Assembly: GCF_014696135.1 (NCBI RefSeq)
Contig: NZ_JACJPP010000015.1
Coordinates: forward strand, 124,001 to 188,000
Source: Nodosilinea sp. FACHB-141
GTDB taxonomy: Bacteria; Cyanobacteriota; Cyanobacteriia; Phormidesmidales; Phormidesmidaceae
Reading direction: 5' to 3'
Length of the DNA stretch: 64,000 nt
Shown here: positions 12,489 through 17,576 of the stretch, piece by piece
How positions within the stretch are numbered: the stretch's first letter is position 1
Layout of the letters: each line of letters opens with the position of its first letter
Position numbers and translations under genes: made by a program
Notes under the pieces: model-generated
What the model saw: the letters and a program-made list of their open reading frames with translations, nothing else
What the model was told of the DNA's origin: nothing
Database searches by the model: none

Positions 12489-13847
12489 CTACGCTACCCC
12501 GGCAAGGGATTTTTGCGGAGCAAACATAGCGTTTTGTTCAGCCCGCAGCTTATCGCACAGACGCCCGGGGGGCAGCTCGACATCGTCGTAGGTTAACGCC
12601 TGATCCTTAGCGACATCCCGCTTTAGCTTACAGCCCTCAGCTAGACCCACTGGAAGCAAGTTTTCCGCCGCCGTAATTTCAGCGGTTTCGCACTCGCCGT
12701 AGGTCATAAAGCCGCCAATGCAGTCAATGGTCTCACCAGCTTTTAGGTCGATTTTGGCGGTGGTCACCACATCAACCTTCTGGCCAGCAATGGGGGTCAT
12801 AACGGCGTCACCAAACAACACAACGCGGGCAACCGACAGTGGCACTTCAAAGTGGCACAGGTGATAGGGGGTGTAGAAGCTGTATAGAGGCCCCTCACCC
12901 AGCTTGTATAGGTTCAGATAATGGCGCTGCTTGGGATCGTCGTGGGTGCCAAATACATAGACTCCAGGGCCAGGCTTTACCGCTACGACATAGTCGACGA
13001 TGCCGCCCAGTTCCTTGAGCTGGTCGACATCGTACAGCTTAGTTAGGTCGTCAATATGACCGGTGTAGTTGAGATCGTACTGCTTGACCAACTCATCCTG
13101 GTGCAGCCTGAAATCGTGGCCCAACATACCGCGTTTGGCGACGGTCATACCGGTGGCGTTAGCAACGATAGCTTGCTCAAAAGAGACTTTGGTGCCATCG
13201 GCAAAACTGGTTACCATATTTACATTCTGCCCCCACTGTTCGGCAAACCCCTTTTGAGTAGTGGGGTTGCGGTAGGGGTCTTGTAGGCCCTTGATATTGC
13301 CGCACACCAGCGGAGTAAGGCCGATGCTCTTAACAAAGCGGTAGAGGTTCATCTCAACGCCAGGCTGGTCGCCATCGCAGGCTGACAAAATCACCCCAGC
13401 TTTATCGGCGTAGGTTTTGAGAATAGGGCCAATGGTGCCATCTAGCTCGGCGTTCATGAGCACGACGTGCTTCTTGTGGGCGATCGCCTCCATCACCACA
13501 TGGGCACCAAACTCTACGGCACCAGTGACTTCAATCAGAGCATCAATTCCCTCTGCTCGACACAACAGCATCGGGTCATCAGTAACGGCATAGCCGCCTG
13601 CTGCAATGCTGTTTTCCAAGTCAGCTACAGTGGAGACGACGTTAATGTCCTCGACACCTGCTTCTTGGTAAGCCCGCTTAGCAGTATCTACGTTGCGATT
13701 TGAGATCGCTACCAACTCCATACCCGGCACAGAGTTGAGCATTTGGTTAGCGACCCCACGCCCCATAAACCCCGCGCCGATCATCCCCACTCGAACCGGA
13801 TTACCGGCTTCCTGTCTAGCTTTTAGCGCCGTATCAACAATAAACAT
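12489..13847 (-). CDS. NAD(P)-binding oxidoreductase with C-terminal SAF domain
   Basis: 452 residues, related to the 'predicted homoserine dehydrogenase with SAF domain' group (COG4091-like). The N-terminal Rossmann fold is clear: VRVGMIGAGFMGRGVANQM (dinucleotide loop GAGFMG), followed by a central catalytic region. The C-terminal SAF part lies about 345-435 (PIAGQKVDVVTTAKIDLKAG, KDQALTYDDVELPPG). The start is the ATG at 13847; the longer ORF upstream lacks support. It is the last gene of the five-gene sugar operon, 100 bp after rfbC. True homoserine dehydrogenase activity is unlikely in this context; a redox step on a nucleotide-sugar or a small hydroxy acid is inferred. Confidence 0.82.
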   Translation of the reverse strand: MFIVDTALKARQEAGNPVRVGMIGAGFMGRGVANQMLNSVPGMELVAISNRNVDTAKRAYQEAGVEDINVVSTVADLENSIAAGGYAVTDDPMLLCRAEGIDALIEVTGAVEFGAHVVMEAIAHKKHVVLMNAELDGTIGPILKTYADKAGVILSACDGDQPGVEMNLYRFVKSIGLTPLVCGNIKGLQDPYRNPTTQKGFAEQWGQNVNMVTSFADGTKVSFEQAIVANATGMTVAKRGMLGHDFRLHQDELVKQYDLNYTGHIDDLTKLYDVDQLKELGGIVDYVVAVKPGPGVYVFGTHDDPKQRHYLNLYKLGEGPLYSFYTPYHLCHFEVPLSVARVVLFGDAVMTPIAGQKVDVVTTAKIDLKAGETIDCIGGFMTYGECETAEITAAENLLPVGLAEGCKLKRDVAKDQALTYDDVELPPGRLCDKLRAEQNAMFAPQKSLAGVA

Positions 13848-13947
13848 GGTGTTTAAGCCTAAGCGATAGATTAGCTTGAAATAGCTCAATAAAGGCCAGT
13901 TCTTTGGCAGAGGACTTCGTCTCAGCAAAGAACTGGCAGAAGATTAC

Positions 13948-14478
13948 CTAGCCTTTAAAGGGAGGCCACTGACCATCTTTTTCAGAAATAACCGTCACAG
14001 GAATTGGCCACTTAATGCCAAACGTGGGGTCATCATAACGAATACCCTGCTCATAACCAGGGGAGTAAAATTCACCTACCTGGTAGATCACTTCAGCATC
14101 GTCGGTCAATGCTTGGTAGCCGTGGGCAAACAGCTCAGGTACATAGAGCGCCTTACGGTTGTCAGCGGTTAGCTCAATGCCAAAGTGCTGCATGTACGTC
14201 GGAGAATCGGGGCGAATATCGATGATGACATCGTAGATAGCGCCGCGGGTGCAGCGTACCAGCTTAGTTTCGGCTGCCGGGGCAAGCTGATAATGCATGC
14301 CCCGCAGAGTACCCTTCTTGTAGTTGAAGGACATGTTGCACTGCGCAACCATGGGCTTTAACCCATGCTCTTCAAATTCTTTGGCACAAAAGGTACGAGC
14401 AAAGCCGCCTCGGTCGTCGCTGCGAATTTCGAGATCGATGACAAAAGCATCTTTGAGATTAGTTGCTTCAAAAATCAT
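13948..14478 (-). CDS. rfbC: RmlC-like sugar 3,5-epimerase
   Basis: 176-residue cupin of the dTDP-4-dehydrorhamnose 3,5-epimerase family (RmlC/RfbC). The catalytic His lies in GTLRGMHYQ, the partner Asp in DVIIDIRPDSPTY, and the substrate-stacking Tyr region in YQVGEFYSPGYEQG. Length is normal. It starts 2 bp after the epimerase stop, so they are translationally linked. The neighbouring nucleotidyltransferase is of the CDP-glucose type, so the real substrate may be a CDP-4-keto sugar rather than dTDP-4-keto-rhamnose. The symbol reflects family, not proven function. Confidence 0.88.
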   Translation of the reverse strand: MIFEATNLKDAFVIDLEIRSDDRGGFARTFCAKEFEEHGLKPMVAQCNMSFNYKKGTLRGMHYQLAPAAETKLVRCTRGAIYDVIIDIRPDSPTYMQHFGIELTADNRKALYVPELFAHGYQALTDDAEVIYQVGEFYSPGYEQGIRYDDPTFGIKWPIPVTVISEKDGQWPPFKG

Positions 14479-16751: not shown

Positions 16752-16802
16752 TATGTTTGCTCTAGTGTGCAGTTATGCAGGCTGTTTTGGAAAAGGCTTG
16801 AA

Positions 16803-17576
16803 TTACCAAACTTTCCAAGGAGCTTCTCCAGATTTCCACAATCCTTCAAGATTATTTTTATCTCGAAGAGTATCCATGGGTTGCCAAAAGCCGTCGTGAC
16901 GGTAGGCTGACAATTGTCCCATCTCAGCTAGCTTCGTTAGGGGTTCATGCTCCCACATGACGTCCTCATCGGGGATAAAGTCGATTACTTGAGGATCTAA
17001 GACAAAATAGCCACCGTTAACGTAAGCTTCATCGCCATCGGCTTTTTCAGCGAAGGATGCGATCGTGGTCTGTCCTTCATGTAGGGAGATGGCCCCAAAT
17101 CGACCAGGGGGCTTGACTGCGGTAAGCGTGGCCAGGGTACCCTGCTCTTCGTGGAATTTAATGAGTTCGGTGACGTTTACATCACTAACTCCATCACCAT
17201 AGGTGAAGCAAAAGGGCTCAGACCCAATATATTCTCTTACCCGCTTGAGACGTCCACCGGTCAGCGTCGATGCGCCGGTATCAATTAGCGTGACTTTCCA
17301 CGGTTCGGCGTTACCGTTATGAATATTCATTTGGTTGTAACGCAAGTCAAAGGTTACATCTGACATGTGCAAAAAGTAGTTGGCAAAGTACTCTTTGATG
17401 ACATAGCCTTTGTAGCCACAGCAAACGATGAATTCGTTAATGCCGTGGGCAGCATAAATTTTCATGATGTGCCAAAGGATGGGATAGCCCCCAACCTCAA
17501 CCATGGGTTTAGGCTTAATGCTAGTCTCTTCACTTAAGCGAGTACCTAAACCACCAGCTAATATAACTGCTTTCAT
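16803..17576 (-). CDS. rfbF: Glucose-1-phosphate cytidylyltransferase
   Basis: 257-residue nucleotidyltransferase that makes CDP-glucose from CTP and glucose-1-phosphate. The N-terminal signature MKAVILAGGLGTRLSEETSI has the GGxGTR loop, then KPKPMVEVGGYPILWHIM, and YGDGVSDVN supplies the metal-binding Asp. RfbF-specific segments (LIDTGASTLTGGRL, ALKPPGRFGA-like VKPPGRFGAI, DTLRDKN) separate it from RmlA. It is the first gene of the minus-strand operon, whose end carries a clear terminator. No CDP-glucose 4,6-dehydratase homologue of the RfbG type stands out nearby. Confidence 0.93.
   Translation of the reverse strand: MKAVILAGGLGTRLSEETSIKPKPMVEVGGYPILWHIMKIYAAHGINEFIVCCGYKGYVIKEYFANYFLHMSDVTFDLRYNQMNIHNGNAEPWKVTLIDTGASTLTGGRLKRVREYIGSEPFCFTYGDGVSDVNVTELIKFHEEQGTLATLTAVKPPGRFGAISLHEGQTTIASFAEKADGDEAYVNGGYFVLDPQVIDFIPDEDVMWEHEPLTKLAEMGQLSAYRHDGFWQPMDTLRDKNNLEGLWKSGEAPWKVW

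Follow-up and report, generated by a model that had tools for sequence, protein, structure and literature searches.

A five-gene operon of Nodosilinea sp. FACHB-141 and its predicted route to a CDP-activated, ring-contracted branched sugar

A stretch of 64,000 nucleotides from Nodosilinea sp. FACHB-141 (contig NZ_JACJPP010000015.1, positions 124,001 to 188,000; hereafter the window) carries five adjacent genes for a glucose-1-phosphate cytidylyltransferase (RfbF), a protein of the L-2-hydroxyglutarate oxidase family (LhgO), a short-chain dehydrogenase/reductase (SDR), an RmlC-like epimerase and an oxidoreductase with a SAF domain. The locus raises the question of which sugar is made from CDP-glucose (CDP, cytidine diphosphate) when a 4,6-dehydratase is missing and an enzyme for a hydroxy acid is present. 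A preliminary description, prepared from the sequence alone, had suggested a CDP-sugar route outside the known dideoxysugar routes, with a hydroxy acid or a redox cofactor cycle; the comparisons reported here support that suggestion at the level of sequence, and a precedent for such a cycle is the conversion of 2-oxoglutarate to L-2-hydroxyglutarate by Cj1427 of Campylobacter jejuni (PMC10680097). It is considered reasonably likely that the product of the operon is a C-branched, ring-contracted furanose activated by CDP and formed by the route set out below.

The operon and its proposed pathway

The operon comprises the following features (coordinates of the window):
16803..17576, minus strand: rfbF, first gene, glucose-1-phosphate cytidylyltransferase (CDP-glucose synthase); TIGR02623, PDB 1tzf
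15531..16751, minus strand: lhgO, FAD-dependent L-2-hydroxyglutarate oxidase, proposed recycler to 2-oxoglutarate; NF008726, PDB 8w75
14481..15506, minus strand: SDR gene, proposed Cj1427-like CDP-glucose C4 dehydrogenase with 2-oxoglutarate as hydride acceptor; 6vo6/6vo8, motifs
13948..14478, minus strand: rmlC-like 3,5-epimerase gene; TIGR01221
12489..13847, minus strand: gene of the DLO1-type SAF protein (DXR-II-like oxidoreductase), proposed ring-contracting reductoisomerase; PF21135, 3upl, AlphaFold model, residue mapping
12418..12450, minus strand: intrinsic terminator-like hairpin with T-run; folding versus shuffles

RfbF would supply CDP-glucose, which the SDR would oxidise at C4 without dehydration to CDP-4-keto-glucose, its bound NADH being re-oxidised by 2-oxoglutarate with formation of L-2-hydroxyglutarate. 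LhgO would return L-2-hydroxyglutarate to 2-oxoglutarate, passing the electrons probably to the quinone pool and pulling the oxidation forward. RmlC would epimerise C3 and C5 beside the ketone, with a stereochemistry that, like the electron acceptor, is predicted. The SAF protein would then rearrange the 4-keto sugar as DXR and DRL do with deoxyxylulose phosphate, the carbon beside the ketone being expelled as an aldehyde and reduced with NAD(P)H to CH2OH, and the predicted product is a CDP-furanose of the dihydrohydroxystreptose type (a 3-C-hydroxymethyl-pentofuranose). Where a CDP-glucose 4,6-dehydratase replaces the SDR and LhgO, a 6-deoxy product of the dihydrostreptose type would be expected. 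Regarding the individual steps, C4 oxidation with 2-oxoglutarate and LhgO is held to be very likely, and ring contraction by the SAF protein, the least certain step, distinctly probable.

The presence of the five genes was confirmed, and together they make up one operon. All five open reading frames (ORFs) were recovered on the minus strand, from 17576 down to 12489 in the ORF listing, with the gaps of 51, 24, 2 and 100 bp given in the preliminary description; the last value presupposes that translation of the SAF gene begins with the ATG at 13847, the listed ORF (12489-13928, 479 aa) opening at a TTG upstream of it. The shared terminator described earlier was also recovered, as a hairpin with a T-run about 40 bases past the stop codon of the last gene (12450 to 12418), where a stretch of 76 bases reached -25.4 kcal/mol (z -3.17) and equal stability was seen in one of 200 shuffles; the hairpin was absent from the output of a simple pattern scan. 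A promoter scan gave six matches against 9.3 expected, i.e., nothing beyond chance.

RfbF scored 449 bits on the equivalog TIGR02623 (glucose-1-phosphate cytidylyltransferase; cut-off 300), had PDB entry 1tzf as its top match (E 1.6e-117) and was the sole CDP-glucose synthase match above cut-off in the source genome, in agreement with the earlier proposal that the first gene makes CDP-glucose. The presence of an LhgO-like FAD enzyme was confirmed by 601 bits on the L-2-hydroxyglutarate oxidase equivalog NF008726 (cut-off 299) and by a match to PDB entry 8w75 (E 2.5e-97). RmlC scored 176.6 bits on TIGR01221, above the cut-off of 155.75, and its residues H62, K72, Y138 and D168, which have catalytic roles in this family, were unchanged in all seven aligned proteins. 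The source genome holds one protein with the DRL_cat domain discussed below and, at the search thresholds, a single match each for LhgO and the SDR. A dTDP-rhamnose route is unlikely for the operon, as no rmlA match above cut-off was found in the genome and the operon RmlC is its only TIGR01221 match. Outside the window, near 280254-281760 of contig C21, rmlB is open and rmlA lies beside it as two fragments only.

The SAF protein and ring contraction

The preliminary description had named the last gene product a homoserine-dehydrogenase-like SAF protein; the SAF assignment stands, but the membership of the reductoisomerase family DRL/DXR-II had been missed. The protein scored 173 bits on Pfam PF21135 (DRL_cat, catalytic domain of DXR-like oxidoreductase; cut-off 27), and among solved structures its relative is DRL of Brucella (3upl/3upy; E 3e-67 for 3upl). 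An AlphaFold model computed from 49 sequences (mean pLDDT 90.4) matched 3upy with a Z-score of 48.1 over 423 residues at 36% identity, and the next families were homoserine dehydrogenase and classical DXR with a Z-score of 18.

The DRL-type family consists of DXR-II and the uncharacterised clades DLO1 and DLO2; K191, K193 and T229 are the fosmidomycin anchors in DXR-II, and R320 serves dimerisation (Brucella numbering; PMC3847144). The window protein shares family, full-length fold and core residues with the Brucella enzyme and differs from it in that K193 is replaced by L, T229 by V and R320 by T, K191 being kept, and in that DLO1 genes sit in sugar clusters. E136, D138, D162, K188, D219, K222, E226, N232, K317 and H331 (alignment numbering) were invariant in all 58 aligned proteins; at the position of K193, all 55 DLO1-type rows have L and the three DRL-like rows have K. 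Because the core residues are invariant and K193, T229 and R320 are replaced, the reductoisomerase core appears to be kept and the phosphate grip changed. Membership of the DRL/DXR-II family suggests a rearrangement of a carbon skeleton. In DLO1 proteins position 229 is Leu, Ile or Val, and the species listed for this clade include cyanobacteria (among them Nostoc 7120), Gloeobacter, Chloroflexus aggregans, Coxiella burnetii and Streptomyces griseus (PMC3847144). With V at position 229 and host kinds that match this list, a comparison made by description, the window protein most likely belongs to DLO1. An isoprenoid role as in DXR-II is judged unlikely, since the anchors are replaced and four DLO1/DLO2 proteins could not replace DXR in E. 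coli (PMC3847144). A polyprenyl synthetase gene was seen about 3 kb downstream of one DLO1 cluster (L129); isoprenoid neighbours were not searched for.

After RmlC, a 4-keto sugar may meet one of two fates: plain reduction, as for rhamnose and the C. jejuni heptoses, or ring contraction with reduction, as for streptose. UDP-apiose synthase likewise contracts the ring of a 4-keto nucleotide sugar with reduction; it differs from the proposed route in that one enzyme carries out oxidation, decarboxylation, contraction and reduction, with neither RmlC nor a DRL-family protein. Ring contraction is named in reference 39 of PMC9095892. Streptose and dihydrohydroxystreptose, called unique to S. griseus and C. 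burnetii, respectively, share with the proposed route a 4-keto sugar, double epimerisation by RmlC, ring contraction and reduction, and differ from it in being made as thymidine diphosphate (TDP) sugars (PMC9095892). The same paper reports that the RmlC proteins of both organisms perform the double epimerisation with no sign of rearrangement; for dihydrohydroxystreptose it calls two activities unidentified, the C4 oxidation that yields the 6-hydroxy 4-keto substrate and the ring contraction, and names finding them the key challenge (PMC9095892). In the DXR reaction a retro-aldol/aldol sequence (PMC8551875) rearranges the substrate and the product is reduced, and by analogy the conversion of a 4-keto sugar to dihydrostreptose would be the same change of skeleton. 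The same analogy would lead one to expect cleavage of the C2-C3 bond, unlike the C3-C4 bond given for streptose-type contraction (PMC9095892). DLO1 is thus put forward as a candidate family for streptose-type ring contraction, and the SDR type as a candidate for the dehydration-free C4 oxidation needed by dihydrohydroxystreptose. BLAST with a single query, the RmlB of the source genome, found no match of at least 40% identity in 89 loci (L032-L120) nor in nine others (L122-L130), so that the TDP form of DLO1 clusters is represented by the literature list alone.

Going by accession numbering, the S. griseus protein YP_001827426 is presumably SGR_5914, adjoining strV, and the C. burnetii protein NP_820815 presumably lies in or near cbu1831-1838; searches of papers for these numbers gave no confirmation. 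S. griseus also has StrL, a protein of the RmlD kind, which counts against DLO1 as the ring-contracting enzyme. So does the preference for an RmlD paralog in this role expressed in 2022 (JBC, PMC9095892). In S. griseus, strV is SGR_5915 (PMC6804068).

The SAF protein could instead be a plain C4 (or C3) ketoreductase, in which case the product would be an ordinary CDP-L-hexose or CDP-hexose epimer with no ring contraction. Homoserine dehydrogenases, its distant relatives at a Z-score of 18, are plain reductases; the close solved relative 3upl/3upy, however, is a reductoisomerase, and nucleotide-sugar C4 reductases are in general SDR or RmlD proteins. The order of C4 dehydrogenase, 3,5-epimerase and reductase is the logic of the Campylobacter GDP-heptose pathway (Cj1427/Cj1430/Cj1428; PMC10680097), which fits a ketoreductase, whereas the presence of both producers of streptose-type sugars in the DLO1 list (PMC3847144, PMC9095892) fits ring contraction. 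On balance the ketoreductase is regarded as unlikely, although it is the most serious of the alternatives.

The SDR, LhgO and C4 oxidation

The top PDB sequence match of the SDR was Cj1427 (6vo6/6vo8; E 1.9e-30, 109.6 bits), the next PDB sequence scoring 68.2 bits. In the fold comparison Cj1427 was again first (Z 34.9) and tied with UDP-glucose 4-epimerases (Z 34.6), so that the likeness to Cj1427 is carried by the sequence. Where 4,6-dehydratases have the Asp motif TDK/TDE, which serves 5,6-elimination, the SDR carries SSCSVYG; all 41 aligned SDRs, the window copy among them, have S115, S116 and C117 and share SSC..YG and Y141/K145 (YxxxK). On the CDP-glucose 4,6-dehydratase model TIGR02622 the SDR scored 27 bits against a cut-off of 278, and no protein of the source genome (99.98% complete) matched that model above cut-off. 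The earlier remark that no CDP-glucose 4,6-dehydratase is evident thus holds genome-wide, the epimerase did not prove to be one, and a normal CDP-dideoxysugar route is rejected.

Cj1427 binds NADH tightly, oxidises its sugar at C4 and has the NADH re-oxidised by 2-oxoglutarate, giving L-2-hydroxyglutarate (PMC10680097). The window SDR is proposed to be a nucleotide-sugar C4 dehydrogenase of this type using 2-oxoglutarate; the presence of LhgO in the operon would be explained because such an SDR would yield L-2-hydroxyglutarate, which LhgO takes back. LhgO as a recycler of L-2-hydroxyglutarate from a Cj1427-type enzyme was not met in open-licence PubMed Central papers, in which this point was narrowly searched. 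The GDP-heptose route of C. jejuni HS:2 likewise consists of C4 oxidation without dehydration by the SDR homologue Cj1427, with 2-oxoglutarate as acceptor, followed by the RmlC-type epimerase Cj1430; it differs in its substrate (GDP-heptose versus CDP-glucose) and in having the C4 reductase Cj1428 in place of a DRL-family protein, and the available part of the source does not mention LhgO (PMC10680097).

To determine conservation, relatives of the SAF protein were sought among 84,980 species, and at least 460 were confirmed; the best-scoring 80 of these 460 loci were analysed, with flanks of up to 8 kb (some contigs being cut) and neighbours labelled by their best BLAST match to six queries. 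These 80 loci represent 12 named phyla and one unplaced bacterium. RmlC was present in all of them (midpoint less than 1.5 kb from DLO1 in 69) and rfbF in 68; an SDR of at least 50% identity occurred in 43, and an SDR of this kind at any identity, close or distant, or a 4,6-dehydratase in 73. LhgO of at least 45% identity was found in 30 and a weaker relative in eight more. The order rfbF, SDR, RmlC, DLO1 was seen in 44 loci. The order of all five genes, whose conservation in other bacteria the preliminary description had proposed to look for, was found on one strand, with interposed genes allowed, in 22 loci (21 cyanobacteria and one Rhodothermaceae bacterium), and in identical form on both Deinococcus plasmids whose annotation was inspected. 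Deinococcus taeanensis shares this order. The three DRL-like outgroup loci (34-36% identity) held none of the partner genes within 6 kb.

Among 386 cyanobacterial genomes, sampled from a larger group and with few candidates scored per genome (absence meaning no match at E 1e-50 for DLO1, 1e-60 for LhgO and 1e-90 for the SDR), 48 had DLO1, 73 had LhgO and 42 had an SDR of at least 70% identity. All 42 SDR genomes also held DLO1 and LhgO, with a distance between SDR and LhgO of at most 1.4 kb in 41 and the two genes on separate contigs in the remaining one. An unlinking of the LhgO and SAF genes in most relatives, raised as a possibility in the preliminary description, was not borne out: they were linked in 42 of the 48 DLO1 genomes, allowing contig breaks in two, and in 30 of the 80 loci over many phyla.

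In all six DLO1 genomes with no SDR or LhgO match, the cluster itself includes a gene for a CDP-glucose 4,6-dehydratase (484-525 bits against the cut-off of 278; on the opposite strand in L125). This had been expected before inspection, the same trend being already visible in the 80 loci, where six of seven 4,6-dehydratase loci were without LhgO and the seventh (L093), counted with them, also has an SDR. Nine proteins from sister clusters scored 434-525 bits on TIGR02622, and one of the six genomes (G170) belongs to the source organism's own family. Clusters of this type would do without LhgO because a 4,6-dehydratase returns the hydride to C6 and requires no outside electron acceptor. In a tree of 131 DLO1-family rows (a quick LG tree with some genomes entered twice, from whose state counts 12 rows with both types, neither type or outgroup status were left out, and in which rows L003-L031 were typed from the cyanobacterial genome matches because their loci are short), the SDR and 4,6-dehydratase types swap at least seven times. 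Within Pontibacter, loci L057, L059, L062, L068 and L079 differ from L051, L064, L067 and L069, the former being of the 4,6-dehydratase type and the latter of a distant-SDR type.

Several results weigh against a strict coupling of SDR and LhgO. LhgO follows the SDR in an average of 3.4 of five independent pairs, and in none is the sign reversed, but with a median p of 0.25 the pairs are too few for significance. The cyanobacterial co-occurrence stems mostly from a single family (f7) and does not represent independent cases; its Fisher p of 9e-30 ignores relatedness and is not a significance level as such. LhgO is missing from 15 of 43 loci with a close SDR and 16 of 23 with a distant one, i.e., from 31 of 66 SDR-type loci, and in two Balneolota loci (L097, L111) rfbF, LhgO, RmlC and DLO1 follow one another and the queries used detected no SDR. 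Of 31 cyanobacterial genomes with LhgO and no DLO1 match, 21 show no such SDR adjoining LhgO (19 without any SDR match within about 6 kb, two with a weak one about 4 kb away), and LhgO therefore has another role too. Against the proposed pathway as a whole stands that the fold alone fails to separate the SDR from GalE proteins.

In six cyanobacterial genomes without DLO1 (L163-L168), rfbF, a Cj1427-like SDR (49-51% identity, SSCSNYG) and LhgO lie in one stretch. The middle genes were typed in L163, where two methyltransferase genes stand between; the product of one carries both the zinc-binding and the C-terminal domain of a sugar C-methyltransferase, a type of enzyme with 4-keto sugars as substrates. 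Cj1427 is again the top match of the L163 SDR (126 bits versus 71). This cluster suggests a second use of the same C4 oxidation logic without DLO1. In L156, L160, L161 and L162, LhgO relatives directly adjoin other SDR proteins (SSCSVYG or SSASVYG), so that the pairing of SDR and LhgO may extend beyond CDP-glucose.

An SDR acting as a GalE-like CDP-glucose 4-epimerase, with LhgO as an unrelated metabolite-repair enzyme riding in the operon, would agree with the tied folds, with GalE as the best NCBIfam match (89 bits, well under the cut-off of 262), and with LhgO occurring apart from such an SDR in the 21 genomes and the two Balneolota loci. This is nevertheless deemed very improbable, as Cj1427 leads the PDB sequence matches by 41 bits, an epimerase would leave RmlC and DLO1 no ketone, and LhgO neighbours the SDR in 41 of 42 genomes, both being missing in all six where the 4,6-dehydratase is present. 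Least probable of all, an LhgO-like protein acting on a CDP-sugar hydroxyl or a derived hydroxy acid would suit the divergent linked relatives (below 35% identity, e.g., L050, L054, L095 and L114, that of L095 scoring 223 bits against the oxidase cut-off of 299), but the window protein scores twice that cut-off and the Cj1427 cycle produces exactly L-2-hydroxyglutarate (PMC10680097).

The heterocyst envelope polysaccharide island and related clusters

The heterocyst envelope polysaccharide (HEP) island of Anabaena PCC 7120 (alr2825-alr2841) begins with a glucose-1-phosphate cytidylyltransferase gene (alr2825), a hypothetical gene (alr2826), an epimerase/dehydratase gene (alr2827) and two genes of unknown function (alr2828-2829), and continues with rfbC (alr2830), an NAD(P) oxidoreductase gene (alr2831), glycosyltransferase genes, hepC and hepA (PMC4390870). 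The order in Nostoc parmelioides (L091), namely rfbF, LhgO, SDR, family 2 glycosyltransferase, unknown, RmlC, DLO1, glycosyltransferase, Wzc-like protein, sugar transferase and ABC exporter, fits this annotation with alr2826 as LhgO and alr2831 as DLO1, matched by annotated order and not by the Anabaena sequences. The window operon differs in standing alone, without these glycosyltransferases and the exporter. Because the L091 order matches the start of the HEP island, the predicted sugar probably belongs to the heterocyst envelope polysaccharide in Anabaena. The source genome holds HetR-like genes; HetR also occurs in cyanobacteria without heterocysts. Functions are hereby suggested for the first genes of the HEP island, which apart from the cytidylyltransferase gene and rfbC are annotated as hypothetical, putative or unknown (PMC4390870).

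LhgO has been described before, as have oxidation of the Cj1427 type and the ring contraction of nucleotide sugars; their union, the CDP form and a role of DLO1 in it were not met in open-licence PubMed Central papers. The broadest form of the proposal appears evenly poised between true and false: that DLO1 proteins are the missing ring-contracting reductoisomerases of streptose-type sugars in at least 12 phyla, well beyond S. griseus and C. burnetii and with the heterocyst polysaccharide included, fed by a 2-oxoglutarate/L-2-hydroxyglutarate/LhgO shuttle that is exchangeable with a self-recycling 4,6-dehydratase, the exchange switching the product between 6-hydroxy and 6-deoxy. Under the proposed pathway, bacterial LhgO would gain a biosynthetic partner and a source of L-2-hydroxyglutarate would be named; a branched sugar is predicted in the envelope polysaccharides of many bacteria, cyanobacteria among them.

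In two further loci (L074, L075) DLO1 and RmlC adjoin a GHMP kinase resembling heptose-7-phosphate kinase, with no rfbF found; these clusters possibly serve the ring contraction of a heptose. Two DLO1 genes per cluster were observed in tandem in L125 and L076 and on opposite strands in L105. Elsewhere in the window, a single ORF on the plus strand (7791-9263) fuses an S-adenosylmethionine-dependent methyltransferase domain with a family 2 glycosyltransferase.

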